From the NCBI RefSeq assembly GCF_002019765.1, contig NZ_KV917380.1:548707-612706 (forward strand): 64,000 bases of DNA, in the 5' to 3' direction. The stretch comes from Shouchella oshimensis (GTDB lineage Bacteria > Bacillota > Bacilli > Bacillales > Bacillaceae_D). Every line of letters begins with the position of its first letter. The stretch's first letter is position 1. Positions 16,918 through 52,031 of the stretch are shown here, one piece after another. Position numbers and translations under genes: made by a program. The notes beneath the pieces are model-generated. The model made no database searches and had not been told where the DNA came from. It worked only from the letters and a program-made list of their open reading frames with translations.

Positions 16918-16930
16918 GTGGGGATGTTTA

Positions 16931-16944: not shown

Positions 16945-16971
16945 TAAAAATTGAATAAAGGAGGCATAAGT

Positions 16972-29527: not shown

Positions 29528-29824
29528 ATGAATAAGGCGCACTTAAAATTTTTGAAAGCTACAGATAGCATATTTTTCTTTTTTGCCTATTCGAACAAAG
29601 CCCATTCATCATATTCCTTATTAAATAACCTTAGAGGTAGTAAAGGATGGGGGGAATCGATTTGGAAAGAAGTGAAAGAACATTTTCGATTTATTAAACC
29701 ACTTTCTGAGGAAAGCTACTTATTAATCTATACTCGTGATAATACCTATCCAATTGCAAATCAAAAACAAGGACTTGGAAGTTGTCAGTACTTGGAAGTT
29801 GTCTACGAGTTTGAGGTTGAATGA
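29528..29824 (+). pseudogene. Decayed gene fragment sharing its 3' end with the gene at 33911
   Basis: The frame has no ribosome site, and the first ~70 residues are not protein-like. From 29745 the DNA matches the 3' end of the gene at 33911-34420 (CCAATTGCAA, AACAAGGACTTGGAAGTTGT, ending LEVVYEFEVE). A 17-base tandem duplication of ACTTGGAAGTTGTCAGT restores the frame for the last ten residues. It therefore looks like a leftover of a duplicated gene. Confidence 0.6.
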
Positions 29825-29909: not shown

Positions 29910-30024
29910 ACATGTGAAAAATTTACTAGTTCAACCATTTTCCCAACCTTGAAAATCTTAAATTTCAATATATTTCCTGTATACTAATTGGAAGAGATTG
30001 AATTTGAAGAAATGAGGATTGGAT

Positions 30025-31113
30025 ATGAAGACATATGCCGTCGAAAGGGTAGGACAACAAATTGTAGAGTGGTATAGCTGCATTATGACAAAGGATATAA
30101 AACAAGCAAAATTATTAAAGCCAGAAGTGGATATAATGGTTGCGAATATGGAACCAGACGACAAAATGTTAGCTTACTATCAATTGGTTTCTTTGCAGTA
30201 TGATTTGTTGGTTCTAAGAGAAGCTCCTGATGAAAAGACAGAAGCGTTAAACGAAACGATATTAGAAAACATCGCCGTTCAGACAAATGATTATTTAAAC
30301 TTTATGTATTACTATGTATGGGGTCAGACTGAGTTTTATAAACAACGTTATAAGTCAGCTATACGAACATACAAAATAGCGGAACGGTTAATTGAAAAAG
30401 TAAAAGACCCTTTAGAAAAAGCTGAATTCTATCAAAAGCTTGGAATCAGTTATTATCGGATTGATCAATATACATTTGCGTTCTCCTATCTGGAACAGGC
30501 TTTAGAGATCTTTGAAAAAGATTCTAGTTATATAATGAATGTCATATCTTGTAAGCAAATCTTAGCAGGTATTCATAGTGAACTTAAGGAATATGAGAAA
30601 GCCGAAGCGATTTATACTGAGCTACTAGTATTATCAAAACCATATCCTTATTATCAAGCGATCACTACATACAATATGGGTTTAAGTAGAATCTTTGTTG
30701 GCAATCTTGACGAAGCTATTCAACATTTTAACAAGGCTATACGAATTGAAGAATTTAGGAATTCAGCTATCTATTTAAAAGCAAAGTACCATGTATTAAA
30801 TTTACAAATGAGGTTGGGAAACTATGCAGAGGGGCTTGAACAATTAGAAGAAGAAGTACATAATAAAGATGTGAAAGAGATTGAAGGGAAGCTTTTAATA
30901 TGTCGTGGTCTTTACTTGAATGAGGGATACTGGCTTATAGAAAAGGGCTTGAATTTGCTACAAACACATGAGTATTATTCTGAATGTCGCAATCTGTGTG
31001 AAGAAATTTCCAAACATTATAAAAAAGCGGATGATTACAAAAAAGCTTTATATTTCTTAGAGTATGCAAATGAAATGGGTAATAAAACAATACTAGGGGT
31101 TGATCAAAGTTGA
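30025..31113 (+). CDS. Rap-type tetratricopeptide regulator 1
   Basis: 362 residues from ATG 30025 with GAGG eight bases upstream. An N-terminal three-helix part (VGQQIVEWYSCIMTKDIKQAK) is followed by ~7 TPR units (ALEIFEKDSSYIMNVISCKQ, ELKEYEKAEAIYTELL, GNLDEAIQHFNKAIR). Rap proteins of the RRNPP group bind response regulators or DNA-binding partners and are switched by a short peptide. A Phr-like gene overlaps the 3' end by four bases, as in classical rap-phr operons. It is clearly paralogous to the second copy at 31370. Confidence 0.92.
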   Translation: MKTYAVERVGQQIVEWYSCIMTKDIKQAKLLKPEVDIMVANMEPDDKMLAYYQLVSLQYDLLVLREAPDEKTEALNETILENIAVQTNDYLNFMYYYVWGQTEFYKQRYKSAIRTYKIAERLIEKVKDPLEKAEFYQKLGISYYRIDQYTFAFSYLEQALEIFEKDSSYIMNVISCKQILAGIHSELKEYEKAEAIYTELLVLSKPYPYYQAITTYNMGLSRIFVGNLDEAIQHFNKAIRIEEFRNSAIYLKAKYHVLNLQMRLGNYAEGLEQLEEEVHNKDVKEIEGKLLICRGLYLNEGYWLIEKGLNLLQTHEYYSECRNLCEEISKHYKKADDYKKALYFLEYANEMGNKTILGVDQS

Positions 31114-31369: not shown

Positions 31370-32458
31370 ATGAAGGGTTTAGCAGTTGAGAGGGTAGGAC
31401 AACAAATCGTAGATTGGTATAGTTGTATTAAGACAAATGATGTAAAACAAGCAAAGTTATTAAAGCCAGAAGTCGATGTACTGGTTGCCAATATGAAACC
31501 AGACGACAAAATGCTTGCTTATTATCAATTGGTTTCATTGCAGTATGATCTATTAATCTTGAAGGTGTCTCCAGAGGAAGCGAAAACCAATTTAGATGTG
31601 AGTGTATTGGAGGGCATTGCAAATCAGGCAGACGATTATCTTAAATTCATGTACTACTATGTTTGTGGGAGAGCTGAATTTTATCACAAGCGCTATAAGT
31701 CGGCGATACGTACCTATAAAATTGCCGAACGATTAATTGAAGAAGTCAAAGATCCTGTGGAAAAGGCTGAGTTCTATCAGAAACTTGGGATTAGTTATTA
31801 TCAAATTGATCAATACACGTTCGCATATACCTATCTTGAACTAGCCTTAGAATTCTTTGAGAAGAACTCCAGCTATAAGATTAATGTCTTTATATGCAAG
31901 CAAACTTTATCAGGCATATACAGCGAGCTTCAACAACATAGCAAAGCTCAAGAAATGTATAATGACCTATTGGAGGATACAAAGTCTTCTCCCTATAATC
32001 AAGCTATAACCAAATACAATATTGGAATCAACAGAATCTGGTTAGGAAACTTTGATGAAGCAATATCCTACTTTAAACAAGCTTTAGAGAATCCTGCATT
32101 TCAAAAATCAACTATTTCTATAAAGGCTCATTATCATATTATGAATTTAGAAATACGATTAGGTAAAAAACAAAAAGGGCTAGCGTGGCTAGAAGAAGAG
32201 GCCAAACTGAAGAATGCGAAAGATATTGAAGGGAAGCTAATGGTCACCCGTGGTTTATATGTAGATAAAGAGAATTCGTTAATTATGCAGGGCCTAGAAT
32301 TACTAGAATCAAGTCAATGCTTTTATGAAGCTTATGAAATGAGCAGTGAAGTTTCGAAATATTATAAACGGAGTAGAGACCTAAAAAAAACCGCCTATTT
32401 TACTAAGTATGCGCACGATATGAAGTGTAAAGCGATTTTAGGACTTGATCAGTCATGA
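31370..32458 (+). CDS. Rap-type tetratricopeptide regulator 2
   Basis: 362 residues, ATG after AAAGAGGG. It lines up without gaps of note against the first copy (shared AVERVGQQIV, WYSCI, LLKPEVD, YKSAIRTYKIAERLIE, EKAEFYQKLGISYY), with most changes in the C-terminal TPRs that in known Raps form the peptide pocket. The pair is a diverged tandem duplication, each copy with its own Phr. The target response regulator (Spo0F, ComA or other) cannot be told. Confidence 0.92.
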   Translation: MKGLAVERVGQQIVDWYSCIKTNDVKQAKLLKPEVDVLVANMKPDDKMLAYYQLVSLQYDLLILKVSPEEAKTNLDVSVLEGIANQADDYLKFMYYYVCGRAEFYHKRYKSAIRTYKIAERLIEEVKDPVEKAEFYQKLGISYYQIDQYTFAYTYLELALEFFEKNSSYKINVFICKQTLSGIYSELQQHSKAQEMYNDLLEDTKSSPYNQAITKYNIGINRIWLGNFDEAISYFKQALENPAFQKSTISIKAHYHIMNLEIRLGKKQKGLAWLEEEAKLKNAKDIEGKLMVTRGLYVDKENSLIMQGLELLESSQCFYEAYEMSSEVSKYYKRSRDLKKTAYFTKYAHDMKCKAILGLDQS

Positions 32459-33734: not shown

Positions 33735-33910
33735 AATAAATACAGAGAAGGATATTACTCAAAGCACAGGTTTATCATTGATCTGTGCTTTCTTGACATA
33801 CTACAGAAACGGTATTATGAAAAAAGTATAAGGTAGGCATAATCGTAAACATTATCAACTGAAACAAAAATATCTCATTAAACCTTTTTTCTATTTAAGG
33901 AGTGAAACGG

Positions 33911-34420
33911 ATGAAACAGAAACGACTGTGGGTGTCTCTAGCTGTTGTGCTAGCACTGATTCTCGCTGCTTTCTTTCTATTTCCGCAAGATGATAAAGCC
34001 ATGGTAAGGTACACCGAATACATTCAAGAGAAAAGGCATGAGCCTTTGCGCACGTACCATCAAGACCCGGTTGTCGGTCTCTTTCTAACTGAGGATGGGA
34101 ACCACGCAGGTATTGCGATGGTGACAGAGGATCACATTGGCGAAGTAACAAACCTCATTCATCAAAGCGACCCCACGTTTTTAAGTGTAAAAGGGGCGGA
34201 AGAAACGTATATTGGCATTCTTTTGCCTAGCGCTCTTGTCGAGGATAACAGCATTCATTCTGTTTCTATTAAAGATACAGAGAGTGGAGAGCTTCCAATT
34301 GATGAGGAACAAGACATCTTCTTTTCCTTTGTGTTTCTAGAAGCGGATGTTTCTATTCCTATCCAATTGCAATTCAAAAACAAGGACTTGGAAGTTGTCT
34401 ACGAGTTTGAGGTTGAATGA
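33911..34420 (+). CDS. Membrane-anchored hypothetical protein
   Basis: 169 residues from ATG 33911 after AAGGAGTG; GTG 33902 is possible. A single N-terminal anchor (KRLWVSLAVVLALILAAFFL) precedes an acidic extracytoplasmic domain with GLFLTEDGNHAGIAMVTEDH and ending LEVVYEFEVE. GC content and codon use are nearer the conserved chromosome than the AT-rich genes on its left. The last ~20 codons and the 3' flank are duplicated at 29745. No family is recognised. Confidence 0.7.
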   Translation: MKQKRLWVSLAVVLALILAAFFLFPQDDKAMVRYTEYIQEKRHEPLRTYHQDPVVGLFLTEDGNHAGIAMVTEDHIGEVTNLIHQSDPTFLSVKGAEETYIGILLPSALVEDNSIHSVSIKDTESGELPIDEEQDIFFSFVFLEADVSIPIQLQFKNKDLEVVYEFEVE

Positions 34421-35048: not shown

Positions 35049-35324
35049 GTAGCACTACCTCCAACCTGTTTAATTATTAATAACTAAATTTAAAGCTTTG
35101 TTGAGGCATACCAGGAATTAAATTTGAGTATATGGCTATCCATTATTAATGCAACCGCAACTTTTTAATTGTATGACGTCATTTTAATAATATCTACCAA
35201 TTCCGTAACCAAAGCTTAACATTAAAAGGTTTATTTTGGAGGAAACTTTTGTAGCCTTCCCTATTAAACTATGATAAATTATGAGTAGTACTCTTAAATT
35301 TGTAGAAATCAGCATGATATTGTC
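35049..35324. other. Noncoding leader region before the exopolysaccharide locus
   Basis: No gene is seen. A possible promoter is TTGTAG (35246) with TGATAA 17 bases later, which would place the start of a long leader that includes the two terminators and the EAR-type RNA. The assignment is tentative. Confidence 0.35.
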
Positions 35325-35360
35325 AAAAAAGTGGGGTTTGAACCACTTTTTGTTTGTTTT
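35325..35360 (+). terminator. Terminator upstream of the EAR-type RNA
   Basis: AAAAAGTGG pairs with CCACTTTTT around an eight-base loop, followed by GTTTGTTTTT. Confidence 0.8.
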
Positions 35361-35407
35361 TGAGAGTTTTAACAATTATGGTCATGTCTTCAATACCATT
35401 ATCAATG

Positions 35408-35506
35408 AAGGCACTCGGCTATGCTAAGGGTCATCACCTTAGGCGCAGGTCGCCGATGGCATGGTGTGAGGAGAGGTTCAATGCCTCTGGTCAAAGCGAC
35501 CGAGAC
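35408..35506 (+). ncRNA. EAR element (eps-associated RNA), processive antitermination
   Basis: A compact GC-rich RNA in an AT-rich leader. Closing helix CTCGG (35414-35418) with CCGAG (35500-35504); hairpin CTAAGG (35424-35429) with CCTTAG (35437-35442), then GCGCAGGTCGCCGA; hairpin AGAGG (35472-35476) with CCTCT (35484-35488); GGTC/GACC near the 3' end. In B. subtilis the EAR element lies in the eps operon directly before epsC and lets RNA polymerase read through distant terminators. Here the same kind of RNA lies directly before the epsC homologue and is followed by a terminator, as the mechanism needs. The family name rests on recalled sequence features plus position. Confidence 0.78.
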
Positions 35507-35570
35507 AAAAAACAGTTAGAAAAGCGCTTACATTAAGGATGTAGGGATTTTTCTAACTGTTTTTATTTTT
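35507..35570 (+). terminator. Terminator between the EAR element and epsC
   Basis: AACAGTTAGAAA pairs with TTTCTAACTGTT across a ~30-base loop that itself holds ACATT/GATGT, and is followed by TTTTATTTTT. It would stop transcription into the locus unless the EAR element overrides it. Confidence 0.82.
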
Positions 35571-35635
35571 AATAAATAAAGTTAAATGTATAGTTATGTT
35601 TCTTAATTATTTATGTAGGGGGATGAATAAACAAG

Positions 35636-37456
35636 ATGACACTAAAGCAACGATTATTGGCTCTTATCGGAATTGACTCTGCAATTGTACTTTTTTCTAT
35701 CTATATCTGTAGCTTAATTTTAACGGCAGGTGTTTCACCAGTAACCGAGGTCATTATTGCAAGCTCGATAGTTTTGTTACTTGTCCACCATCTGTGCGCT
35801 TATCGCTTTAAGTTGTACAAAAAAGCTTGGGAATATGCAAGTATCACTGAGTTGAAAGCAATTGTGTACACGGTCACGATTTCAATCGTCGCAGCAGGTC
35901 TAACACAGATGATCTTCTTCCAAGATCTTTACGTACGGACACTTATTATGACATGGATGATGCACGTACTATTAATCGGTGGATCTAGAATGTCGTGGCG
36001 CGTCTATAAAGATGCCTATATGGGTAATAAAAAAGACGGTAAACGCACACTCATAATTGGTGCCGGATCAGCTGGAACCATGATTGCGAGACAGTTAAAA
36101 CAAGATCAAGACACTACGCTGACGCCTGTTGGCTTTGTTGATGATAATTTTACTAAGCATGGTTTAGAGATATTAGATCTCCCTGTATTAGGCGGTACAA
36201 AGAGCCTACAAGAAATTGTTGCAAATGAAAGAGTAGAGCATATTATTATTGCGATCCCTTCATTAAATAAAACCGACCTTAATCATATTATTAAATTATC
36301 CACAGATACAAAGATAAAAACGCAAATTCTTCCTCGTATGGAAGACTTAGTACTTGGAGCTGTTCAAGTTAGCCAGTTTAAAGACGTGGAAGTAGAGGAT
36401 TTACTTGGACGTGAACCTGTAGAGCTAGACGTCGATGGAATTGCTGACTATATTACTGGAGAAACCATCCTTGTCACAGGTGCTGGCGGTTCCATTGGTT
36501 CAGAGATTTGTCGTCAAGTCGCTCGGTTCTCTCCTAAAGAAATCATTTTATTAGGTCATGGAGAGAACAGTATTTATTCCATTGAGATGGAGTTGCGTCG
36601 AAACTTACCTAATCTACCTATTGATACAGAAATTGCAGATGTACAGGATAAGGAAAAAATTCAATCAATTATGTTTAAAAGACAACCACATGTTATCTTC
36701 CATGCGGCAGCACATAAGCATGTACCGCTTATGGAGCGGAATCCAGAAGAAGCGGTTAAGAATAACGTGATTGGTACAAGAAACGTTGCTGAAGCTGCCG
36801 ACCTAGCTGGCGTGAATACGTTTGTGATGATTTCAACAGATAAAGCTGTCAACCCAACAAGCGTAATGGGGGCTACAAAGCGAATTGCGGAGATGATTAT
36901 CCAGCACATGGATATGATTAGCGACACTCGCTTCGTCGCTGTTCGTTTTGGAAACGTATTAGGCAGTCGCGGTAGCGTTATTCCATTATTTAAAGATCAA
37001 ATTAAAGCTGGTGGACCGGTTACGGTGACACACCCAGAAATGGTTCGGTATTTTATGACAATCCCGGAGGCGTCACGTTTAGTTCTACAAGCAGGGTCTT
37101 TAGCGGATGGTGGAGAGGTTTTTGTTCTTGACATGGGTGAGCCTGTGAAAATAGTTGATCTTGCTAAAAACTTAATACGATTAAGTGGGTTTTCTGAAGA
37201 TGAAATACCAATCCGATTTTCGGGTATGAGACCTGGAGAGAAAATGTTTGAAGAATTATTAGGGGAAGATGAAGTTCATAGTGAACAAGTTTATCCAATG
37301 ATTTACCGTGGTAAAACCCCTGAAGTCAATATAGAAGTTACATACAATTTAATAATCCAATACGTCCATATGGATACGAATCAGTTAAGAGAAGAACTTT
37401 TAAATATAGCTAATTTTAAAGTAGACGGTTTAAGAGAATTGATTACAGCAAATTAA
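35636..37456 (+). CDS. epsC: Membrane UDP-sugar 4,6-dehydratase (EpsC/PglF/CapD type)
   Basis: 606 residues, ATG 35636 after AGGGGG. Four N-terminal helices (~10-105), a first Rossmann domain with LIIGAGSAGTMIARQ (~140), then the catalytic SDR domain with ILVTGAGGSIGSE (~283) and TSVMGATKR, where Met replaces the usual Tyr as in this dehydratase family. It would convert UDP-GlcNAc to the 4-keto-6-deoxy sugar at the inner membrane. The following aminotransferase and phosphosugar transferase match the bacillosamine-type route of B. subtilis EpsC-EpsN-EpsL. GC content is normal here and falls in the genes that follow. Confidence 0.93.
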   Translation: MTLKQRLLALIGIDSAIVLFSIYICSLILTAGVSPVTEVIIASSIVLLLVHHLCAYRFKLYKKAWEYASITELKAIVYTVTISIVAAGLTQMIFFQDLYVRTLIMTWMMHVLLIGGSRMSWRVYKDAYMGNKKDGKRTLIIGAGSAGTMIARQLKQDQDTTLTPVGFVDDNFTKHGLEILDLPVLGGTKSLQEIVANERVEHIIIAIPSLNKTDLNHIIKLSTDTKIKTQILPRMEDLVLGAVQVSQFKDVEVEDLLGREPVELDVDGIADYITGETILVTGAGGSIGSEICRQVARFSPKEIILLGHGENSIYSIEMELRRNLPNLPIDTEIADVQDKEKIQSIMFKRQPHVIFHAAAHKHVPLMERNPEEAVKNNVIGTRNVAEAADLAGVNTFVMISTDKAVNPTSVMGATKRIAEMIIQHMDMISDTRFVAVRFGNVLGSRGSVIPLFKDQIKAGGPVTVTHPEMVRYFMTIPEASRLVLQAGSLADGGEVFVLDMGEPVKIVDLAKNLIRLSGFSEDEIPIRFSGMRPGEKMFEELLGEDEVHSEQVYPMIYRGKTPEVNIEVTYNLIIQYVHMDTNQLREELLNIANFKVDGLRELITAN

Positions 37457-37480
37457 GTGAATGTGGAAGGAAGTACCGAG

Positions 37481-38587
37481 ATGAGTAAAAGGATATACCT
37501 ATCATCCCCTCACATGAGTGATGAGGGTTATGAGATGGATTATGTCAAAGAAGCGTTCGAAACTAATTGGATTGCACCTTTAGGTGAAAATGTTAATAAA
37601 TTTGAACAAGAATTTGCTGAGAAAGTGGGAGTAAGAGCTGCAGCGGCACTATCTTCTGGAACTGCTGCCTTACACTTGGCTCTTAAAGCAGCGGGTGTAG
37701 GTAGTGGGGATATTGTATTTTGCCAAACATTAACGTTTTCTGCAACTGCAAATCCAATAATCTATCAAAATGCAACTCCAGTCTTTATTGATAGTAACTA
37801 TGAAACATGGAATATGTGCCCGGATGCATTAGAGGAAGCTTTTAATAAGTATCCTGAAGTAAAAGCGGTAATTGTCGTTCATCTGTATGGACTTTCTGCC
37901 GACATCGAACGCATTGCTCAAATGTGTAAAGAGAGAAATGTCGTGTTAATAGAGGATGCTGCGGAGTCCTTAGGCTCCCTTTATAATGGACAACAAACCG
38001 GAACTTTTGGTGATTTTGGTATCTTTTCATTTAATGGCAATAAAATTATCACTACTTCTGGAGGTGGTATGCTTGTGTCAAATAATGAGGAAGCGATAGA
38101 GAAAGCTCGTTTCTGGGCAACTCAATCTAGAGATAAAGCAATTCATTACCAACACAGTGAATTAGGCTACAACTACAGGATGAGCAATGTTTTAGCTGGC
38201 ATAGGAAGAGGGCAACTTAAAGTTTTAGATGAAAGGGTAGAAAAGAAGAGATATATTTATGAGTTTTACAAAAGAGAATTAAAAGAGTTAAACGGAATTA
38301 AATGGATGCCTGAAATTAAGATTGATCGACCTAATTATTGGTTAAGTGCAATTACTTTAACTGGTGATACTACCCCTTTGGATATTATAGACACCTTAGA
38401 AAAAGAGAACATTGAATCAAGGCCAGTTTGGAAACCGATGCATATGCAACCTTATTTTAAGAATTACGATTATGTAGGTTCTACTATTTCGGAACAGTTG
38501 TTTGGAAATGGTGTATGTTTGCCATCGGAGACAAAGATGACTGATAAGGATTTATATAGAATAACATCAATAATTAAGAGTTTATAG
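37481..38587 (+). CDS. PLP sugar aminotransferase (DegT/DnrJ/EryC1, EpsN-like)
   Basis: 368 residues from ATG 37481 after GGAAGG; GTG 37457 is possible. PLP enzyme motifs: SSGTAALHLALKAAG, LIEDAAESLGSLYNG and FNGNKIITTSGGG, with the Schiff-base Lys in the last. It would put an amino group on the 4-keto sugar made by the dehydratase, giving UDP-4-amino-4,6-dideoxy-GlcNAc. It follows epsC by 24 bases. SYNYRMSN-type NYRMSNVLAG is another family mark. Confidence 0.92.
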   Translation: MSKRIYLSSPHMSDEGYEMDYVKEAFETNWIAPLGENVNKFEQEFAEKVGVRAAAALSSGTAALHLALKAAGVGSGDIVFCQTLTFSATANPIIYQNATPVFIDSNYETWNMCPDALEEAFNKYPEVKAVIVVHLYGLSADIERIAQMCKERNVVLIEDAAESLGSLYNGQQTGTFGDFGIFSFNGNKIITTSGGGMLVSNNEEAIEKARFWATQSRDKAIHYQHSELGYNYRMSNVLAGIGRGQLKVLDERVEKKRYIYEFYKRELKELNGIKWMPEIKIDRPNYWLSAITLTGDTTPLDIIDTLEKENIESRPVWKPMHMQPYFKNYDYVGSTISEQLFGNGVCLPSETKMTDKDLYRITSIIKSL

Positions 38588-38620
38588 ATTATTGTATTTA
38601 AAACGGAGGCTATTTAATAA

Positions 38621-39214
38621 ATGTATGGAAATTTTTTCAAAAGATTAATTGATATAATACTTTCTCTCATAGGTATTATAGTTACAGCTCCAATCATGAT
38701 TGTTGTTGCTATTCTTGTGTTTACAAAATTAGGAAGACCAATTCTGTTTAAGCAAGAAAGACCTGGTTTGAACGGAGAAATTTTTAAATTATATAAATTT
38801 AGAAGCATGAAAAATGATAAAGATGAAAATGGAGAATTTCTACCAAATGAACTAAGATTAACAAAGTTCGGTAAACTACTTAGGTCAACTAGTATGGATG
38901 AACTTCCTGAACTGTTCAATATACTGAAAGGTGATATGAGTGTAATTGGGCCAAGACCATTGTTAACTACTTATCTATCTTTATATAGTGAAGAACAAAA
39001 GAAAAGACACGACGTTAGACCGGGATTATCAGGAATAACAGCAGTTAACGGTAGAGCAAGCCTATCATGGGAAGAAAAGCTTGCAATGGATGTCTGGTAC
39101 GTAGAAAATGTCAGCTTCACTTTAGATATAAAGATTATATTAAAGACTATACTAACTGTCTTAAAAAGAAAAAATATAAGTAGTAACAGAGGAAAGTTTA
39201 AGGGCAACAAATAA
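38621..39214 (+). CDS. Initiating undecaprenyl-phosphate sugar phosphotransferase (EpsL/PglC-like)
   Basis: 197 residues, ATG 38621 after GGAGG. One N-terminal re-entrant helix (LIDIILSLIGIIVTAPIMIVVA), then FKQERPGLNGEIFKLYKFRSM, LGKLLRSTSMDELPELFNIL-type core and MSVIGPRPLL, VRPGLSGITAVNGRA. This small monotopic enzyme loads the first sugar phosphate on the lipid carrier. With the dehydratase and aminotransferase it fixes the first residue as a bacillosamine-type sugar. An acetyltransferase for the new amino group is expected, and the next gene may supply it. Confidence 0.93.
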   Translation: MYGNFFKRLIDIILSLIGIIVTAPIMIVVAILVFTKLGRPILFKQERPGLNGEIFKLYKFRSMKNDKDENGEFLPNELRLTKFGKLLRSTSMDELPELFNILKGDMSVIGPRPLLTTYLSLYSEEQKKRHDVRPGLSGITAVNGRASLSWEEKLAMDVWYVENVSFTLDIKIILKTILTVLKRKNISSNRGKFKGNK

Positions 39215-39235
39215 CAAATTAATTAGGGGCTTTTT

Positions 39236-40165
39236 ATGGAAATTAAGATCAAAGACGTATTAGACTTACTTACTAAGTCAAATTACAAGTTTTCCTTTCA
39301 TGGAGATAGAAATGAAATCTTAGAAGGCTTCTCTACTCTATTTAACTATAAAAAGAGTACAATTACTTTCGTGTCTTCCTTAAATAAGTTCGAGGATCAC
39401 GAATCGTTATTCAAGGGTAGTAAAATCACTTTAATAGTTGCTGATCCAAGTGAAGCTATTAATAGCTGTTTTTTAAATACCATTCATATTAAAAACCCTA
39501 AGAGAGCTTTTTTCTTTATACTCGATAACTTATTCAATTCTAATTTAGAGAGTGAGAGTATCCGAAAAATGGAAGTGGAAGATGATAATGACCATTCGTT
39601 CATTTCTAAAAAAGCAAAAGTAAGTGTTGGAGTAAAGGTTGGTATTAACTGTATTATTGAAGAAGATGTTGTTATTGGTGAGGGTACAGTGATACATCAT
39701 AATGTAGTAATTCGAAGCGGTACAAAGATCGGAAAAAACTGCACAATATTATCAGGTAATATCATTGGGGAGACTGGCTTTAATCCACTTAAGTTAGATG
39801 ACGGTACAAGAATGATGGTAAGGCATTATGGTGGTGTAACAATAGGAGATAACGTTTTTATTGGTGACAACTGCTCAATTTCAAAAGGAGCAATAGACGA
39901 TACAATAATCGAAAGTGGAGTGAAAATAAACAAAAAAGTTATAGTGGCTCATAATGTTTTAATTGGAAAAAATACTGTTATTACCTCCCCTACTTTTATT
40001 TGTGGGAGTGTAAAAATTGGATCAAATTGTCATATTGCAGCTAGTGTAATTAAAAATCAGTGTACTATCGGTGACGAAGCTATTTTAGGATTAGGATCTG
40101 TAGTGGTTAAGAATGTTGAAAGTAAGACAACAGTTGTAGGTAATCCAGCAAAAGAGTTAATCTGA
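39236..40165 (+). CDS. LpxD-like left-handed beta-helix acyltransferase
   Basis: 309 residues. N-terminal domain (~1-110) of the LpxD type (ITFVSSLNKFEDHESLFKGS), then hexapeptide repeats (~125-305: VGVKVGINCIIEEDVVIGEG, TKIGKNCTILSGNIIGETGF, HYGGVTIGDNVFIGDNCSIS). The catalytic His is likely in HNVLIGKN or HHNVVI. LpxD normally acts in lipid A synthesis, which this Gram-positive lacks, so here it most likely acylates an amino sugar of the polysaccharide. Start ATG 39236; ribosome site is AGGGGC. Confidence 0.82.
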   Translation: MEIKIKDVLDLLTKSNYKFSFHGDRNEILEGFSTLFNYKKSTITFVSSLNKFEDHESLFKGSKITLIVADPSEAINSCFLNTIHIKNPKRAFFFILDNLFNSNLESESIRKMEVEDDNDHSFISKKAKVSVGVKVGINCIIEEDVVIGEGTVIHHNVVIRSGTKIGKNCTILSGNIIGETGFNPLKLDDGTRMMVRHYGGVTIGDNVFIGDNCSISKGAIDDTIIESGVKINKKVIVAHNVLIGKNTVITSPTFICGSVKIGSNCHIAASVIKNQCTIGDEAILGLGSVVVKNVESKTTVVGNPAKELI

Positions 40166-40175
40166 GGTGAATTTT

Positions 40176-40826
40176 ATGAGAATATTAGTTTTTGCTCCAC
40201 ACAATGATGATGAAGTATTAGGTGTAGGTGGAACGATAGCGAAATATGTAAATGAAGGACATGAAGTGTATGTCTGTGAAGTAACTAGTGGTGTAGATAA
40301 AAAACGCCTGGAAAGAATTGAGAATGAAGCATTAGCTGCACACCGTATTTTAGGCGTTAAAGAAACAATGTTTTTAGGACTCCCAGTTGTGGGTTTGTCT
40401 GATATTCCGCTCAAAGAACTAAATCAATCAATACTAGACGCTGTTAATAAAGTTAAACCAGATATTGCATATATTCCCCATAAGGGAGATATGCATGATG
40501 ATCATACTAGAGTTGCAGAAAGTGCCATGGTGGCTTTAAGACCAGTGAATAGTCCTCAGCTAAAAGCAATATATGCTTATGAGACATTATCTGAAACAGA
40601 GTGGAATATTCCAACTGTGGACAATGCTTTTATACCAAATGCATGGACCGATATTAGTGAGACAATAGATGATAAATTAAGGGCTATGAGTGAATTCAAA
40701 TCGCAAGTGAAAGAATTTCCTAATCCGAGATCTTTAGAAGCTATTGAGTCACTATCTAAATTTAGAGGATCAACGATTTGTGTTAGAAATGCAGAAAGTT
40801 TTATGGTAGTAAGAATTATAAACTAA
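40176..40826 (+). CDS. PIG-L family (LmbE-like) N-deacetylase
   Basis: 216 residues from ATG 40176 after GAGGTG. FAPHNDDEVLGVGGT is the AHxDDE zinc/base motif (Asn replacing one residue) and PHKGDMHDDHTRVAESA holds the second zinc His pair (HxxDH). These enzymes remove N-acetyl from GlcNAc-type residues. In an exopolysaccharide locus it would free an amine on a sugar, which can then be charged or further substituted. It follows the acyltransferase by ten bases. Confidence 0.88.
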   Translation: MRILVFAPHNDDEVLGVGGTIAKYVNEGHEVYVCEVTSGVDKKRLERIENEALAAHRILGVKETMFLGLPVVGLSDIPLKELNQSILDAVNKVKPDIAYIPHKGDMHDDHTRVAESAMVALRPVNSPQLKAIYAYETLSETEWNIPTVDNAFIPNAWTDISETIDDKLRAMSEFKSQVKEFPNPRSLEAIESLSKFRGSTICVRNAESFMVVRIIN

Positions 40827-40837
40827 GGGGTTTTTTT

Positions 40838-41941
40838 TTGACCTATAATCAGAGAAATGAAATAGGGAGTTATTTTGAAACTGAAGATAAAATAATTAAT
40901 TGCAAGCAGGAAAATCGATTCGATTTTGATTTTGAAAAGTTATTCTCAGATTCCACTTATGTTTTCTCGGGTAGAAATGCTATTGAGTTAGCTTTAAAAG
41001 ATATTGAATTAACCAAAGAGATAAGAACCGTTTACATGCCGTCTTATCTGTGTGATTCAATGATTGATCCATTTTTGGAAAATGAGGTTAAGATACATTA
41101 TTATAAAGTCAATTATAATTTTAATTTAAAAGTAGTTGAAGTAGATATCAATAAGAATGTCGAATGCGACATTCTTTTTATTAACAATTATTTTGGTAAC
41201 AATAAATTAGTTAATAAAGAAAGTATTGATCATTTCAAATCAAAAGGTACGGTTATTTTTGAAGATGTCACTCATGGATTGTTTAACAAAAACTTTATCG
41301 AGAATAGTTCAGATTATTATGTAGCAAGTATTAGGAAATGGCTAGGCTTAGCTTCAGGTGGATTATTATTAAAAAAAAATGGAATCCTTGCTAATAAACC
41401 AATTATTAATAGTGACAAGTTTGCAAGTACAAAGATTAATGCTATGGAATTAAAGAAAAAATACTTAAAAGGCTTTAATGTTAATAAAAATGATTTTATG
41501 AAAATTTTTGCTGAATCCGACAAAATGTTTAAAGAAGTTGGTACGAAATATAAGATTGATACTCATTCAATAAACATATTGAACAAATTAGATAGCGATT
41601 TGTTGAGAAAAGTAAGAATTAATAATTCGAAATATATATATGATCAATTAAAAAGACTAGAATTCATTGAACCAATTTTTACGGAAAACTTTAGAGATGA
41701 TATTTGTCCATTATTTGTTCCTGTTATTATTAAGGCTGGAAAAAGAGATGAATTGCGTAATTTATTAATTGAAAATGGTATTTATTGTCCAGTACACTGG
41801 CCACAAAACAGAGGACAATATTCAAATATACAAAACAATGAACTATCATTAATATGTGATCATAGATATGATCACAATGATATGGAGAGATTGTGTGCAG
41901 TTCTAAAAAACTGGGATAAAATAAATAGCGAAACTACCTAG
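40838..41941 (+). CDS. DegT-fold PLP-dependent enzyme, divergent
   Basis: 367 residues from TTG 40838 after AAGGGG. The fold-type I outline is there: FSGRNAIELALKDIEL, CDILFINNYFG, VIFEDVTHGLFNK, VASIRKWLGLASGGLLLK with the probable Schiff-base Lys, and PVHWPQNRG near the end. It is too divergent to say whether it transfers amino groups to sugars, condenses amino acids or does something else. AT-rich, like its neighbours, and tightly packed after the deacetylase gene. Confidence 0.72.
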   Translation: MTYNQRNEIGSYFETEDKIINCKQENRFDFDFEKLFSDSTYVFSGRNAIELALKDIELTKEIRTVYMPSYLCDSMIDPFLENEVKIHYYKVNYNFNLKVVEVDINKNVECDILFINNYFGNNKLVNKESIDHFKSKGTVIFEDVTHGLFNKNFIENSSDYYVASIRKWLGLASGGLLLKKNGILANKPIINSDKFASTKINAMELKKKYLKGFNVNKNDFMKIFAESDKMFKEVGTKYKIDTHSINILNKLDSDLLRKVRINNSKYIYDQLKRLEFIEPIFTENFRDDICPLFVPVIIKAGKRDELRNLLIENGIYCPVHWPQNRGQYSNIQNNELSLICDHRYDHNDMERLCAVLKNWDKINSETT

Positions 41942-41975
41942 CTATTAATAGTTTTTAATAAAGAGGAGTTCTAGA

Positions 41976-42959
41976 ATGCAAGATATTTATTTTGAAGACT
42001 CATACGGAAAACTTTATGAACGTATTGAAGATGGAAAATCAAAAAGTTTCCTCTTTGAAAGCGAATTAGGTAAAGTGAGACATCAGTTTATTAAGCGGAA
42101 AATTTCTACTTCCTTATATAAAAATGAAGTATATGACCTCGTTACTCCTTATGGATATGGTGGACCAATTATTGAAAAGGTCAGGAAAGGTTATGAAGCA
42201 GAGCTTGTTGAAGAATTTAATGAAGCTTTTAAACAGTATTGTTTTAATGAGAATATCATCAGCGAATTTGTGAGATTTCATCCAATACTAGAAAACGCTA
42301 AGCACTTTGGAAATGTATATGATGTTACCAAAATACGGAAAACTGTCGGTACTGACTTATTAAATTATACAGATCCATATAGTGAAGAGTTCTCAAAAAG
42401 TGCCAGGAAAATTATAAAAAAATCTTTATTGAATGGTATTAAATATAATGTTGTGCGCAACCCAGAGAATATAGGTTCTTTTAAAAATATCTATTATTCT
42501 ACTATGGATAGAAATAAGGCAAGTGACTATTATTATTTTGGTGAAGAGTACTTCGATAGCTGTCTTAATTACTTAGGTCAAAATATTATTTTAGTAGAAG
42601 TCTATCTCGAAAATAAAGTTATTGCTTCTGGATTTTATTTTGTATTCAATAAGACAATACATGCTCATTTATCAGGAACATTAAATGAGTATCTAAATTA
42701 TTCCCCAGCTTATATTTTAAAGTACGCAACGTTAGAATGGGCAAAGGATAACGGAATAGAGCTTATACATTATGGCGGAGGTACTAGCAACAGCGAAGAA
42801 GATAATCTATACAAATTTAAGAAGAAGTTTGGCAAAAATACATCGTTTGATTTTTATGTTGGGAAAAAGATTTGGAACAAAGATGTATATAAAGAGCTTT
42901 CTGAAGGTGTAGAGAGTAACATAGATTTCTTTCCATTATATAGGTTTCATAAAAAATAA
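41976..42959 (+). CDS. FemAB/GNAT-like aminoacyl- or acyltransferase
   Basis: 327 residues, ATG after AGAGGAG. YGYGGPII, an N-terminal FemX-like strand pair, then a second GNAT domain with VEVYLENKVIASGFYFVFNK, HAHLSGTLNEYLNYSPAYIL, LIHYGGGTSNSEEDNLYKFK. Fem proteins add amino acids from aminoacyl-tRNA to peptidoglycan amino groups; relatives in capsule loci are thought to add amino acids or acyl groups to amino sugars. With the preceding deacetylase it could substitute the freed amine. Confidence 0.78.
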   Translation: MQDIYFEDSYGKLYERIEDGKSKSFLFESELGKVRHQFIKRKISTSLYKNEVYDLVTPYGYGGPIIEKVRKGYEAELVEEFNEAFKQYCFNENIISEFVRFHPILENAKHFGNVYDVTKIRKTVGTDLLNYTDPYSEEFSKSARKIIKKSLLNGIKYNVVRNPENIGSFKNIYYSTMDRNKASDYYYFGEEYFDSCLNYLGQNIILVEVYLENKVIASGFYFVFNKTIHAHLSGTLNEYLNYSPAYILKYATLEWAKDNGIELIHYGGGTSNSEEDNLYKFKKKFGKNTSFDFYVGKKIWNKDVYKELSEGVESNIDFFPLYRFHKK

Positions 42960-42979
42960 TTGTTAGTTAGGAGTATAAA

Positions 42980-44278
42980 ATGTTAAGTAATCTTAGTGGT
43001 AAAAAGTTATTAATCCTAGGCGGTTCAAAAATTTCATGTGAAATTGTAAGAAAAGCAAAAGCAATGGGGGTTTATACAATGGTTACTGATTGGTATCCTA
43101 TTGATAAATCACCAGCAAAAAAAATTGCTGATGAGTCATTTATGACAAGTACAACTGATATACCAGCGTTACTTAAATTGATAAAAGAAAATAAAGTAGA
43201 TGGAATTTTAACTGGGTTTACAGATTCAACTCTACCTCATTATGCAAGGATCTGTGAAGCTGCTAATTTACCGTGCTACGGTACAGAGGAGCAATTCAAT
43301 ACACTGATAGATAAAAAAGTTTATAAAGAGGTATGTAAAAATTATAATATACCTATAGTTGATGAGTTTTTATTTGAGCCATCTAAGGATAGCATTAACA
43401 CATCTAAAATAACGTTCCCGGTGTTAGTAAAACCTTCTGATAGTAGTGGTGCAAAAGGTGTAACAATCTGTAATGAAGAATCACAGTTCTTAAACGCCTA
43501 TGAAAAAGCATTGAGCTATTCCGAGAAAAAACGAGTAATTGTTGAAAGATACATAAAAGGTAAGGAAGTAACGATTTTTTATTTATTAAACGATGGAGAA
43601 ATCTATTTAACGGGAATGGGCAATAGACACGTTAAACATAATCAAGATGGAGTTATCCCTTTACCTGTTGCTTACACTTTTCCATCAGTTTATCTTGATA
43701 AGTATAGGGAAAATACTGATTCAAAAGTAAAAAGGATGTTTAAAGATTTAGGGTTGAAGAACGGTATGGTCTTTATGCAATGTTTAATTGAAAAAGAGGA
43801 AGCAATTATCTATGACATTGGTTACAGATTAACTGGAACATTAGAGTACAAATTAATGGAAGAGATCAATGGTTATAATCCATTAAAAATGTTGATAAAT
43901 TTTGCCTTAACAGGGAGAATGACAGAAGAGCCTGCTAATCTACCAATAGAATCTAATTGGAACAAATATGCTTGTAACGTTTCATTTTTAATGAAACCAG
44001 GCGAAATTGCAAGAATTGATGGTTTAGAAAGAATAAAAGAATTTCCAGAAGTAATAGATGCAGTCATTGCAAATGATGTTGGTACAATTATTTCTGAGGA
44101 ACTTAAAGGGACACTTAGACAAATAGTGTTGCGCGTATTTGCTGTTACAGATAATAGAGATGACTTGGAAAAAGTCTTGGACAAAATTTATAAATCACTT
44201 AAAGTTGTATCAACTAGTGGAGAAGATTTATTATTGCCTGGATTTAATACACAAGAATTGGATGGTCTGTTAAAATGA
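42980..44278 (+). CDS. ATP-grasp ligase
   Basis: 432 residues. An N-terminal Rossmann-like pre-ATP domain (KKLLILGGSKISCEIVRKAK, DGILTGFTDSTLPHYARICE), then ATP-grasp (PVLVKPSDSSGAKGVTICNE, VIVERYIKGKEVTIFYL, MFMQCLIEKEE-type active loops with IYDIGYRLTGTLEYKLMEEI). These enzymes join a carboxylate to an amine or similar via an acyl phosphate. In this locus it may link an amino acid or other acid to the sugar chain or make the donor for the FemAB-like gene. It overlaps the next gene by four bases. Confidence 0.85.
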   Translation: MLSNLSGKKLLILGGSKISCEIVRKAKAMGVYTMVTDWYPIDKSPAKKIADESFMTSTTDIPALLKLIKENKVDGILTGFTDSTLPHYARICEAANLPCYGTEEQFNTLIDKKVYKEVCKNYNIPIVDEFLFEPSKDSINTSKITFPVLVKPSDSSGAKGVTICNEESQFLNAYEKALSYSEKKRVIVERYIKGKEVTIFYLLNDGEIYLTGMGNRHVKHNQDGVIPLPVAYTFPSVYLDKYRENTDSKVKRMFKDLGLKNGMVFMQCLIEKEEAIIYDIGYRLTGTLEYKLMEEINGYNPLKMLINFALTGRMTEEPANLPIESNWNKYACNVSFLMKPGEIARIDGLERIKEFPEVIDAVIANDVGTIISEELKGTLRQIVLRVFAVTDNRDDLEKVLDKIYKSLKVVSTSGEDLLLPGFNTQELDGLLK

Positions 44279-45174
44279 ATATTGCCCAGAAAAGAGTTTT
44301 ATTAAGTGGATCTGGAGGGCTTCTTGGTAGTGAAATTATTAATCAATTAAAGAACAATGACAGTTACAATGTGATAGCAATAACCTCGCAAAGTAAACAA
44401 CTCCAGGCAAAGTACAAGGAATTTGAAAATTTAACTGTTGTCGATATTACTGAGTGGTTTGGACGTAAAGATATAGAGGCAGATGTTTTAATACATTCAG
44501 GCTTTCCGAGAAGTTCAAATCCTACGTCACTTTCTGCTGGGTTGATTTCAACTGAAAAAATTATAAAGAAGTCTATAGATTCAGGTGTAAGTTCCGTAAT
44601 TAATATATCTTCACAAAGTGTATATAGCCAAAGTGAAAAGGATAATACTACGGAGCAAATAGACGTCTCACCTGAATCAAATTATGGTATGACTAAATTT
44701 GCTGTTGAAAGGATAGTCAATGCATTCTGCAAAGAGAGAGTCCATTTTACAAATATTAGATTAGCTAGTTTAGTAGCATTAAATTTTGATATTAGGTTAA
44801 CAAATAAGTTTGTCAAGGATGCTTTTTTAGGAAAAGCTTTAAATCTAACTGGTGGAGATCAGAAAATTTCTTATTTAGACGTTAGAGATGCTGCATCAGG
44901 AATCATTAATATGCTCGAATTCAATTCATCTAAGTGGAAAGAGGTCTATAATTTGGGCAATGATGACTACTTAACTCTAGTTCAGATTGCCGAGCATATA
45001 AGAAAATTGTTAAAAGAGTCCCACAACATTGATGTTGTAATAAATATTAAAGAAAACAGTGGTCCAAATACAAATAACTTAATAGATAGTAATTTATTCT
45101 ATAAAGATTTTAACTGGAAACCAGATTTTACAATGAAACATTTTATAAAGGATTTAATTCATAACTATAATTAA
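44275..45174 (+). CDS. NAD-dependent sugar epimerase/dehydratase
   Basis: 299 residues, ATGA overlap. Extended SDR with LLSGSGGLLGSEII (NAD loop), VINISSQSVYSQSEKD, and YGMTKFAVE (catalytic Y-x3-K). It probably epimerises or reduces a nucleotide sugar for this polymer, or acts on the product of the ATP-grasp enzyme with which it is translationally coupled. The exact substrate is unknown. Confidence 0.85.
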   Translation: MNIAQKRVLLSGSGGLLGSEIINQLKNNDSYNVIAITSQSKQLQAKYKEFENLTVVDITEWFGRKDIEADVLIHSGFPRSSNPTSLSAGLISTEKIIKKSIDSGVSSVINISSQSVYSQSEKDNTTEQIDVSPESNYGMTKFAVERIVNAFCKERVHFTNIRLASLVALNFDIRLTNKFVKDAFLGKALNLTGGDQKISYLDVRDAASGIINMLEFNSSKWKEVYNLGNDDYLTLVQIAEHIRKLLKESHNIDVVINIKENSGPNTNNLIDSNLFYKDFNWKPDFTMKHFIKDLIHNYN

Positions 45175-45198
45175 GAAGAAAGTTGCGGGTGCCATTAA

Positions 45199-46344
45199 GT
45201 GTACACATTAGTAATTGGTAGAGCGTATCCTGAAGAAAGTACAGGAATGATGGGCATTTTTGAGTTTGAACAAGCTAAAGCTTTGAATCGTAATGGTATG
45301 AGGACAATCTATGCATTCTGTGACAATCGGTCAATAAAGAAGTTAAAAAAATTTGGAAGTTTTACTGCTGAAGATGAGATCAAAGCTTATGGGTATAATT
45401 TACCTATAGGAGGACTGCCTACAAAGATATTTAACAGATTTAAATCCAAGCTACTAAAAAAAATAATTAATGAAATAATATCAAAATATGGGAAACCCAA
45501 TATTATCCACGTACACTTTCCTTTATTGACTTTAACAGATGAGCTATGGTCATTTCTTTGTGAATTACAAATTCCTTTAGCTACAACAGAACATTGGACT
45601 AAAGTTCAGACTAAAAATCTAGAACCTTTTAGAATAAAATTGCTAAAAAGGGTTGTTGAAGAATCATCTGCTTTTATATGTGTAGGTGAGTTATTAAGGG
45701 AAAGCGTAGCAGAAATAACATCTACTAACAAAAAAATTCAAGTGATACCAAATATGGTTGCTCAAGAATTTACTTTTGAGAAAAAGAAAAAATCCAATTC
45801 AAGTTTTAACTTTATATCTGTTGGAAGGTTAGTAGAAGTCAAAGGTTTTGGTTCACTTATAGATTCATTTGCTAAAGCATTTAATGGAAATACAGGTGTT
45901 ACCCTAACAATTGTTGGTGGTGGTAAACTAGAAACTACTTTGAAGGATCAAGTCATTCAGTTGGGAATTAGTAACAAAGTTAATTTTATGGGATTTCTTA
46001 GTAGGAATGAAACTGCTAAACTTGTTAAAGAGAGCGATGTATTTGTATCCGCTAGTTATTTAGAAACTTTTGGCGTTCCCTTTATAGAGGCTATGACATG
46101 TGGAAAGCCAGTTATAGGCTTAAAAGATGGACCAATTGACGATTACATTACTGAAGACGTAGGTATGTTAGTAAATAAGAATAGTTTAGACGATCTTTCT
46201 AATTCACTTATATATATGCACGAGAATTATGAGAAATTTGATAGTAGATTTATTAAAGATTATGCTATTAATAACTTCTCTGAAAGTGCTGTAACGAGTA
46301 AGTTGAAATTAATTTACGATAACGCTATGACAAGTAAAAGATGA
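45199..46344 (+). CDS. Glycosyltransferase, GT4 family
   Basis: 381 residues from GTG 45199. GT-B fold: N-terminal acceptor lobe (PEESTGMMGIFEFEQAKALN, HVHFPLLTLTDELW) and C-terminal donor lobe with ISVGRLVEVKGFGSLIDSFA, GFLSRNETAKLV and VSASYLETFGVPFIEAMTCG (E-x7-E). It transfers a sugar onto the lipid-linked repeat unit in the cytoplasm. Confidence 0.9.
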   Translation: MYTLVIGRAYPEESTGMMGIFEFEQAKALNRNGMRTIYAFCDNRSIKKLKKFGSFTAEDEIKAYGYNLPIGGLPTKIFNRFKSKLLKKIINEIISKYGKPNIIHVHFPLLTLTDELWSFLCELQIPLATTEHWTKVQTKNLEPFRIKLLKRVVEESSAFICVGELLRESVAEITSTNKKIQVIPNMVAQEFTFEKKKKSNSSFNFISVGRLVEVKGFGSLIDSFAKAFNGNTGVTLTIVGGGKLETTLKDQVIQLGISNKVNFMGFLSRNETAKLVKESDVFVSASYLETFGVPFIEAMTCGKPVIGLKDGPIDDYITEDVGMLVNKNSLDDLSNSLIYMHENYEKFDSRFIKDYAINNFSESAVTSKLKLIYDNAMTSKR

Positions 46345-46351
46345 GGATAAT

Positions 46352-47488
46352 ATGAATGTATTGTTGATTGCTACGTACTCGGGTATCTCTGGAGCTAGTA
46401 AATCATTAGTGAAACTAGCTGAATTACTGAAATCAAAGGGTGTTAATATTATTGTTATAATACCTAAAAACGGAGAAATTGAAAAGTTATTGGTTGAAAG
46501 TGAAATCAGTTATAAAGTGATAAGATTATATAACTGGGTTGCTCCTTTAGATAATAAAATTCGTTTTAATGGGAATTTAGCATGGAAAGTAAAGCAAGTA
46601 ATAAATTACATGCAAGAGATCCGTTTGTTTTATTTAATAAAACAAAATAATATTGATATCGTCCATATAAATGCTATCACTGCTAATTGGGGTTATTTAG
46701 CGTCAAGAATTGCAAGAGTAAAAACAGTTTGGCATATTCGAGAACTTCTTGAAGAAGATCTAAATAAACAATTTAGAGATAAGAAAAAGTCAGTTAAGCA
46801 GATAAGCCAAGCAAATAAAATAATTGCAATATCAAACAGTGTTTCTTTGAAATATAAGGACATATTAAAAGTTGATATATCAACTATATATAATGGGATT
46901 GACAGTGCTAATTTTGTTGTGAATAACAAGAGTCTTTTGAAAGATAACTACGTAAAATGTACTATAGCTGGTAGATTGATCAAAGAAAAAGGCATTCTAG
47001 AATGTATTGAAGCATTAAACATTCTAATCAGTCATAAGGGTTATAAAAATATCTCTTTAGATATTATTGGAGTAGGAGATAAAGAATATACCGCACTATT
47101 GAAGAAGAAAATATCTGAATATGATTTAGAAAAAAACGTTAAATTGTTAGGCTTTAAAAGTAATATCCATAATTACTTTGTAGAATCTGATATTATTATT
47201 GTTTCATCAAAGGCAGAAGCTTTTGGTAGAGTTACTATTGAGGCAATGTTGAGTCAATCTTTAGTTATAGGTGCGAACACTCAAGGGACAGAGGAACTGA
47301 TTGGGAGAGACTACGGCTTGTTATATAATCAGGGAAGCAGTTCTGATTTGGCGAAAAAAATAGAGTATGCAGTAAACAACAAACAATTTGTTAGAGAAAA
47401 AGCTTTTGCAGGTAGAGAATACGCATTAAATTTTTCAGCTGAGAAAAATGCGTCTGAAATTTTTAAACTATATAATGAAATTCTCTAG
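46352..47488 (+). CDS. Glycosyltransferase, GT4 family
   Basis: 378 residues, ATG 46352, eight bases after the preceding gene. TYSGISGASKSLVKLAELLK at the N-terminus, IVHINAITANWGYLASR, CTIAGRLIKEKGILECIEAL, LLGFKSNIHNYF and VSSKAEAFGRVTIEAMLSQS (E-x7-E). It is a second retaining transferase for the repeat unit. With the initiating enzyme this gives at least three sugars per repeat. Confidence 0.9.
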   Translation: MNVLLIATYSGISGASKSLVKLAELLKSKGVNIIVIIPKNGEIEKLLVESEISYKVIRLYNWVAPLDNKIRFNGNLAWKVKQVINYMQEIRLFYLIKQNNIDIVHINAITANWGYLASRIARVKTVWHIRELLEEDLNKQFRDKKKSVKQISQANKIIAISNSVSLKYKDILKVDISTIYNGIDSANFVVNNKSLLKDNYVKCTIAGRLIKEKGILECIEALNILISHKGYKNISLDIIGVGDKEYTALLKKKISEYDLEKNVKLLGFKSNIHNYFVESDIIIVSSKAEAFGRVTIEAMLSQSLVIGANTQGTEELIGRDYGLLYNQGSSSDLAKKIEYAVNNKQFVREKAFAGREYALNFSAEKNASEIFKLYNEIL

Positions 47489-47508
47489 CTAAGAATAATA
47501 TTATTTAT

Positions 47509-48708: not shown

Positions 48709-48736
48709 ACTAGAATTAAATAGGATTGTAGATGAC

Positions 48737-50047: not shown

Positions 50048-50073
50048 TAAAATATTTAATAGGAGGTGCCAAT

Positions 50074-51399: not shown

Positions 51400-51403
51400 T
51401 ATC

Positions 51404-51446
51404 CACCTCGTTGTCTTAAATCTTTAAGGCAACGAGGTGTATTTTA
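51404..51446 (+). terminator. Terminator at the end of the exopolysaccharide locus
   Basis: CACCTCGTTG pairs with CAACGAGGTG, with CTTAA/TTAAG stacked inside, followed by TATTTTAT. Confidence 0.85.
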
Positions 51447-51481
51447 TATAATAAATAATAGAAACCGTTGAGGTGAGGGTA

Positions 51482-51625
51482 ATGGACAACCTTTCAAACT
51501 TAGATCAACTGACATTACAAAAAATACTGGTAGAAATAACGGAGAAAATAGAAAAAGAAAAAGAGGGCAGCTTAGAGGTTGTAATGAAAGAAATCGTTGA
51601 AAAGTTAAAGAGTTATTCAAACTAA
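51482..51625 (+). CDS. 47-residue helical protein
   Basis: ATG 51482 after GAGGTGAGGG. The protein (MDNLSNLDQLTLQKILVEIT, then KEKEGSLEVVMKEIVEKLKS) is one amphipathic highly charged helix without membrane segments. It lies between the locus terminator and the XRE gene. The strong ribosome site supports translation; its role is unknown. Confidence 0.55.
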   Translation: MDNLSNLDQLTLQKILVEITEKIEKEKEGSLEVVMKEIVEKLKSYSN

Positions 51626-51702
51626 TAGAGTCATTAGATGTTAAAATGTAGAATCTAAGACACTCTACAAAGGCAAAGAATGTATAAATTGTTTGGTGTT
51701 TG

Positions 51703-51921: not shown

Positions 51922-51939
51922 TTGCAAACTCCTTTTGTA

Positions 51940-51997: not shown

Positions 51998-52031
51998 ATC
52001 TGTCGTTATTTTTAATGTTGGAGGTCTTCTT

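Follow-up and report, generated by a model that had tools for sequence, protein, structure and literature searches.

The window, by which we mean the whole 64-kb stretch of DNA analyzed here, carries a polysaccharide gene cluster headed by an EpsC-type gene and preceded by a structured leader RNA. The following features make up the locus:

35272-35284, + strand: putative extended -10 promoter TGATAAATTATGA, recognized by its motif, with a start expected near 35287
35326-35351, + strand: T1, an intrinsic-terminator-like hairpin upstream of EAR (9-bp stem, T-rich tail, -10.9 kcal/mol)
35379-35487, + strand: EAR/epsC RNA core (RF01735; 96.8 bits, model positions 1-117)
35489-35501, + strand: P5, a hairpin (GGTC-AAAGC-GACC) directly next to the last one of EAR and not covered by the Rfam model (hairpin comparison)
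35508-35571, + strand: T2, candidate gate terminator, a 25-bp hairpin (35508-35564) followed by a U-tract (fold, covariation, T-score)
35519-35532, + strand: cre-like operator GAAAAGCGCTTACA within the 5' strand of the T2 stem, with two mismatches to TGWAARCGYTWNCW
35636-37456, + strand: EpsC-type nucleotide-sugar dehydratase, the first operon gene (PF02719, 3e-124)
37457-50047, + strand: apparently swapped cargo, the genes named below (Pfam, blastn)
50074-51399, + strand: UDP-glucose dehydrogenase (ugd), the conserved tail of the locus (PF03721, 1.2e-64)
51404-51439, + strand: end-of-operon terminator hairpin (16-bp stem, -25.8 kcal/mol)

The cargo begins with a DegT aminotransferase, a sugar transferase, a hexapeptide transferase, a PIG-L protein and a 367-aa protein without a Pfam match, and continues with FemAB-like and ATP-grasp proteins, an epimerase, two GT4 glycosyltransferases, Wzy and Wzx. 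A terminator-like 10-bp hairpin followed by a T-run, at 41153-41176 inside the gene for the 367-aa protein, is a candidate distal EAR target. Elsewhere in the window, neighboring genes (30019-31113 and 31370-32458) encode paralogous proteins of 362-364 aa that by eye look like Rap-type TPR regulators, with no NCBIfam match at 1e-10. Open reading frames at 29528-29824 and 33902-34420, which share an identical C-terminal end (LEVVYEFEVE), suggest a duplication around these paralogues.

The RNA that precedes the operon clearly belongs to the known EAR class of antitermination RNAs. A structured, EAR-type RNA ahead of an epsC homologue had been proposed in the initial annotation, which named the Rfam EAR model as a check, and comparison with the Rfam covariance models bears this out: RF01735 ("epsC") matches at 35379-35487 (+) over model positions 1-117 of 117, with 96.8 bits against a gathering threshold of 42 (E = 2.1e-15). 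This is the sole gathering-level match in an Rfam scan of the window, and a covariance search found no second EAR in the genome, which is one contig of 4,058,377 bases (4.06 Mb). The setting, a polysaccharide cluster with an EpsC-type first gene, is the expected location for RF01735, and the minimum-energy fold of the leader (35287-35635; -99.2 kcal/mol, z = -5.2) was equaled by none of 100 shuffles. Passages of an earlier survey treat the epsC motif and EAR as one RNA and report a pseudoknot for it (PMC2864571).

The comparison set came from a first search of 149 genomes, of which 95 (the window's own among them) carry EAR, at 127 loci in all; the 95 genomes belong to one order and share ancestry, so that the counts are not independent. 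A hold-out set from the same order comprised 40 loci from genomes new to the analysis, taken next in score order among the matches listed, with 19 higher-scoring new loci left out. Within the window's genus, 12 genomes carry EAR, and a thirteenth (G006) has none. A few loci in the main set are unusual. One (L054, G022:C5:1033452-1034099) holds a tandem of two equally scoring EARs separated by about 430 bases, the upstream copy being followed by a run of N, and could be an assembly effect; at another (L137, G141:C10:44894-45009) the gene called next is on the opposite strand, as for a possible orphan or decaying copy; and two weak EARs of 47.8 and 46.6 bits (L125, G112:C23:6772-6869, and L109, G087:C18:330-450, respectively) are perhaps degenerate copies.

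The helices proposed in the initial annotation fared differently in this set. The AGAGG/CCTCT pairing is present (35472-35476/35484-35488) and forms the last EAR hairpin. The CTAAGG/CCTTAG hairpin likewise exists in the window, but its full 6-bp match recurs in only 10 of the 127 EARs. CTGTGG stands opposite CCTTAG in 85, and CCTTAG itself is found in 117 and may thus be conserved for some other reason as well. The supposed CTCGG/CCGAG closing helix was rejected as a chance match, as CCGAG lies within 40 nt after EAR at a single locus among 127, the window's own, and the Rfam structure pairs CTCGG... with ...GTGTGAG. That EAR is a metabolite riboswitch is scarcely credible: epsC is among the riboswitch candidates of Weinberg et al. 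2010 (PMC2864571), but passages of the same text report antitermination activity and doubt a ligand, and in the minimum-energy fold (one fold) the 3' part of EAR and T2 lie side by side and do not compete.

EAR is flanked by two terminator-like hairpins, T1 (35326-35351) and T2 (35508-35564), as had been noted in the initial annotation. The T1 hairpin is common to four of the 12 genus genomes (G000, G004, G007 and G012), with an altered loop in G004, and TGRTANATTATGA occurs upstream of EAR in seven of the 12. From the putative -10 element we infer a transcription start about 90 bases before EAR; a promoter scan did not list this element (35272-35284), and there is no good -35 there. A promoter between T1 and EAR was also considered and rejected, as the scan reported none on the + strand in that interval, although the 35272 candidate is likewise unlisted by it. 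With such a start, T1 would be transcribed before EAR, and EAR therefore could not act on T1 in the usual way. A leader peptide was likewise rejected: judged by eye, the ATG frame that opens at 35313 and continues across T1 into EAR is interrupted by a frame shift in G007 and lacks an evident ribosome site.

The sequence directly after the Rfam model takes one of two forms. A U-tract (at least 5 T in 10 bases) follows 88 of the 127 EARs, a P5-like short GC hairpin follows 25 (shuffles: mean 0.62, maximum 3), none has both, and 14 have neither. P5 stems include GGTC/GACC, GGGC/GCCC, GGGG/CCCC, GGGT/ACCC and GGGA/TCCC, and their carriers are all 12 genus EARs together with some other members of family f1, and f37. 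At loci without P5, the frequency of T is 0.63-0.74 at bases 2-7 after EAR versus about 0.25-0.5 from the tenth base on. The hold-out set showed a U-tract at 28 of 40 loci, P5 at none and both at none; since none of these 40 loci comes from f1, the set is no test of P5.

Beyond P5 lies T2, in which the hairpin at 35508-35564 is followed by TTTTTATTTTT, giving the stable stem with an immediate U-tract that defines an intrinsic terminator. P5 and T2 together (35488-35580) fold with z = -7.55, as well as which none of 200 shuffles did. T2, whose stem is long and in two parts, was not listed by a simple terminator scanner. In an alignment of 11 genus genomes and two loci from a different genus in the family, seven T2 pairs are altered on both sides (reached in 3 of 500 shuffles) and the covariation score was matched by 0 of 500, although pair types are no more numerous than among shuffles (292/500).

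A strong hairpin in this position is common among EAR loci. Hairpins of -18 kcal/mol or below occur within 150 nt downstream of 95 of the 127 EARs versus upstream of 12, and in 73 of 261 other same-strand gaps, a control in which duplicates were left where one locus holds two EARs; by this measure, 32 EARs have no strong downstream hairpin. The hairpin starts a median of 14 bases after EAR, beats all 20 shuffles at 92 of the 127 loci, and recurs in 27 of the 36 families and 36 of the 50 genera in which EAR was found. The hold-out set agrees (33/40 downstream versus 3/40 upstream; median start 16). Whether these hairpins are terminators is a separate question, for which we compared T-scores. 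A value of at least 2.9 was reached by 11 of 12 genus hairpins versus 34 of 83 strong hairpins outside the genus, so "gate terminator" is not secure as a description family-wide. We regard it as unlikely, if worth weighing, that the downstream hairpin instead serves stability or processing, or forms part of a larger EAR domain, with EAR acting on distal sites only. The share outside the genus, under half, would fit such a role. The strong U-tracts within the genus speak against it, as does the overall share (45/95), which resembles that of convergent gene ends (16/35) and exceeds that of same-strand gaps (30/103). Distal terminators were rejected as proof of EAR targets: the 11 terminator-like sites counted on both strands over 35050-52300 are not clearly above the 6.6 expected by chance (sd 3.1).

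The 5' arm of T2 also contains a cre-like site, matching the cre consensus TGWAARCGYTWNCW at 12 of 14 positions. The sequence CGCTTACA occurs inside T2 in 11 of the 12 genus genomes; T2 of the twelfth, G002, carries CGCTTTCA closer to the loop, a perfect cre on the other strand. In a 12-row alignment (two rows from another genus, G002 left out), the 5' columns over CTTACA are identical in all rows while four of the six 3' partners vary, which points to a constraint beyond pairing.

Counts across loci depend on the stringency applied. A site within two mismatches of TGWAARCGYTWNCW is present in the 160 bases following EAR at 28 of 127 loci (shuffle mean 11.6, maximum 18) and upstream at four, where 12.2 are expected. 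With the genus excluded, such sites occur within 100 bases downstream at 16 of 115 loci (mean 5.8, maximum 11) and upstream at one, and sites with at most one mismatch occur downstream at three (0.5 expected). Within 100 nt downstream in the hold-out set, five of 40 loci, all from f5 and f27, have a site with at most one mismatch (mean 0.1, maximum 1) and none has one upstream; at two mismatches the count is seven of 40, which shuffles also reach (mean 2.1, maximum 7). Genome-wide, TGWAARCGYTWWCA at up to one mismatch is found 89 and 83 times on the two strands versus 32 and 30 for the control. Within the window, AAAAGCGCTTACA occurs twice (0.14 expected at up to one mismatch), in T2 and ahead of a beta-glycanase-like gene at 16951, whose profile match is below its cut-off. 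Right before that gene, at 16900-16944, lie the LacI-type palindromes CGAAAGCGCTTTCG and TGTAAGCGCTTTTA, the second of which shares AAAAGCGCTTACA with T2.

Besides a ccpA gene (543.1 bits), the genome yields another 13 sub-cut-off matches to the CcpA model, so other LacI-type regulators could read the site. As a weaker proposal, a LacI-family repressor, with CcpA as the first candidate, probably uses the cre-like site in T2 to block passage when a preferred sugar is present. A stronger version, in which such a roadblock is the main switch and EAR serves the far end of the operon, seems to us rather improbable. It draws on the retention of the operator core while its pairing partners vary, on the hold-out excess of close matches downstream, and on CcpA roadblocks known in B. 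subtilis (PMC10310618). Against it, the window's site is two mismatches off, a distance at which hold-out counts are reached by shuffles; sites with at most one mismatch are confined to nine loci in all (4/127 and 5/40); and the further CcpA-model matches leave room for other binders.

Neighboring genes, called with a simple ORF rule and grouped in BLAST clusters of which one member each was checked, place EAR in a recurrent context. The first same-strand gene downstream, present at 124 of the 127 loci, is EpsC-type at 70, GalU/GtaB-type at 33, a sugar transferase at six, DegT at four and something else at the rest; the same-strand upstream gene (110 loci) is a CpsB/CapC-type phosphatase at 56, a BY-kinase at 36 and GalU/GtaB-type at six. 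The usual place of EAR is thus between kinase/phosphatase genes and the first biosynthetic gene. Within the genus, galU/gtaB comes first in 10 of 12 genomes and epsC in two (two of the ten GalU/GtaB proteins were checked), and the upstream neighbor is an opposite-strand gene in 10, a retained phosphatase gene in G002 and a dubious ORF in G005. In the window, the called gene upstream lies on the other strand, 330 bases away. The statement that epsA and epsB are absent upstream thus holds for the directly adjacent DNA, but genes of this type exist farther off: wzz, kinase and phosphatase genes, unaccompanied by an EAR, lie about 140 kb ahead of the window's EAR, at contig positions 442.6-444.8 kb. 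The genome also has galU elsewhere. A scan of genome contigs with the genus pattern returned 14 stretches, seven from Shouchella / Bacillus sp. JCM 19041 and seven from Fibrobacter (taken as chance).

Comparison with close relatives (blastn, E 1e-6, 12 kb behind EAR) separates a constant leader from the genes behind it. The leader is 85-92% identical in DNA to those of G007, G012 and G004 as far as 35564, the base at which the T2 stem ends, ahead of epsC. From 35564 to 50085 blastn aligns nothing in G007 or G004 and a single 100-base piece in G012; identity to all three resumes at ugd (50085-50090), 14.5 kb on, at 79.8-94.5%. Hence, the leader is the constant part. A similar layout is seen between G003 and G011, which share 99% identity across leader and galU/gtaB as far as +970, do not match over 9.1-9.5 kb, and are 98% identical from ugd (about +10 kb). 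G024 and G027 also have a conserved head and tail with an unmatched middle, as do G007 and G012 in their middle, save one 66% piece. G008 and G010, by comparison, are 98% identical throughout the 12 kb. The GC content of the cargo is 30.6%, that of epsC-DegT 38.4% and that of ugd 38.1%. T2 was rejected as a general swap breakpoint: across the best-partner pairs of 126 loci, similarity ends at the T2 end in only seven, runs into the gene in 58 and stops before the T2 end in 29, and 32 have no T2. The break at 35564 is therefore particular to comparisons with the window's genome, whose leader is not followed by galU/gtaB.

These comparisons bear on the proposal of the initial annotation that EAR moved with an epsC-led operon. 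In this account the RNA is a companion of epsC brought in with the operon after loss of epsA and epsB; it is largely refuted and we give it little credence. EpsC-type genes are the commonest first gene (70/124), and the epsC DNA of the window is shared with G001, G008, G009, G010 and G002. Against this, galU/gtaB takes first place at 33 of 124 loci overall and in most of the genus, similarity to the nearest relatives spans EAR and ends at T2 before epsC, and the wzz-kinase-phosphatase module is still in the genome. Instead, the alignments show an EAR leader that stays put and is followed in close relatives by different sugar genes, a pattern that looks new.

Our preferred reading, which we consider likely, is that the leader is an EAR antitermination head that gives read-through of T2 and later stops, allows exchangeable cargo, and, less firmly, can be blocked by a repressor via the cre-like site. 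By analogy with B. subtilis, the nascent EAR, with P5 replacing the usual U-tract, would alter the polymerase, which would then read through T2 and subsequently through later weak stops in the operon. With T2 as the putative first gate, a transcript lacking a functional EAR would stop short of the cargo; and because the modified polymerase would ignore stops within the cargo, genes behind T2 would be exchangeable while head (promoter-EAR-P5-T2) and tail (ugd) stay. The operator in T2 suggests a sugar-dependent catabolite roadblock of the kind known for CcpA. More tentatively, and with considerable doubt, EAR heads may be composite in general, combining EAR, a U-tract or P5 that marks an EAR-loading pause, and, in some lineages, a repressor site at or near the gate terminator.

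The closest known system is the EAR/epsC RNA itself, with which the window's copy shares the full-length covariance match, the polysaccharide operon and a terminator downstream. The B. subtilis EAR, located between epsB and epsC (PMC7858274, PMC10653937), acts on distal and foreign terminators, with the polymerase ignoring terminators downstream (PMC7858274). Whereas that EAR sits inside its operon between the second and third genes, the one here belongs to a leader that has a putative promoter of its own and in which P5 replaces the U-tract, with T1 upstream and the operator-bearing T2 downstream. RfaH, a NusG-type protein recruited by DNA in enterobacterial polysaccharide operons, works in a similar way with ops/JUMPstart without belonging to the same class: a fixed leader element makes the polymerase processive across long polysaccharide clusters, but RfaH is a protein and EAR an RNA. 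This parallel between the epsC RNA and JUMPstart is drawn in PMC2864571, which in 2010 also described RNAs of the EAR type ahead of polysaccharide genes, in the 5' leaders, so the RNA itself was already known. As in a cre/CcpA roadblock, the window has a cre-like palindrome within a transcribed leader; unlike cre boxes, the putative site has two mismatches and sits in a terminator stem. Capsule loci exchange cassettes between conserved flanks, as in pneumococcal cps. The present locus resembles these in its conserved head and tail and differing biosynthetic middle, although the head there consists of regulatory genes and here of an antitermination RNA and a terminator. In titles and abstract openings of the EAR and eps-CcpA/cre literature, a set without Irnov and Winkler 2010 (reportedly the main EAR paper), we found no description of the U-tract, P5, the downstream hairpin, the operator-bearing T2 or a constant head with differing cargo. 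Thus the leader arrangement, with a covarying terminator hairpin that carries a site resembling that of a catabolite repressor, looks new.

The alternative 3' elements, a U-tract in most EARs and P5 in the genus and some relatives, lend themselves to short, testable constructs, as does the hairpin that directly follows EAR. If the composite reading is true, passage would need both an EAR-modified polymerase and a free operator, and any exchanged polysaccharide cluster would be expressed as one unit. A constant head with differing cargo offers a reason for antitermination in polysaccharide operons, in that new gene sets would be expressible despite their own stops, and through a cre-like site in the EAR leader the production of slime or capsule would be coupled to sugar supply.
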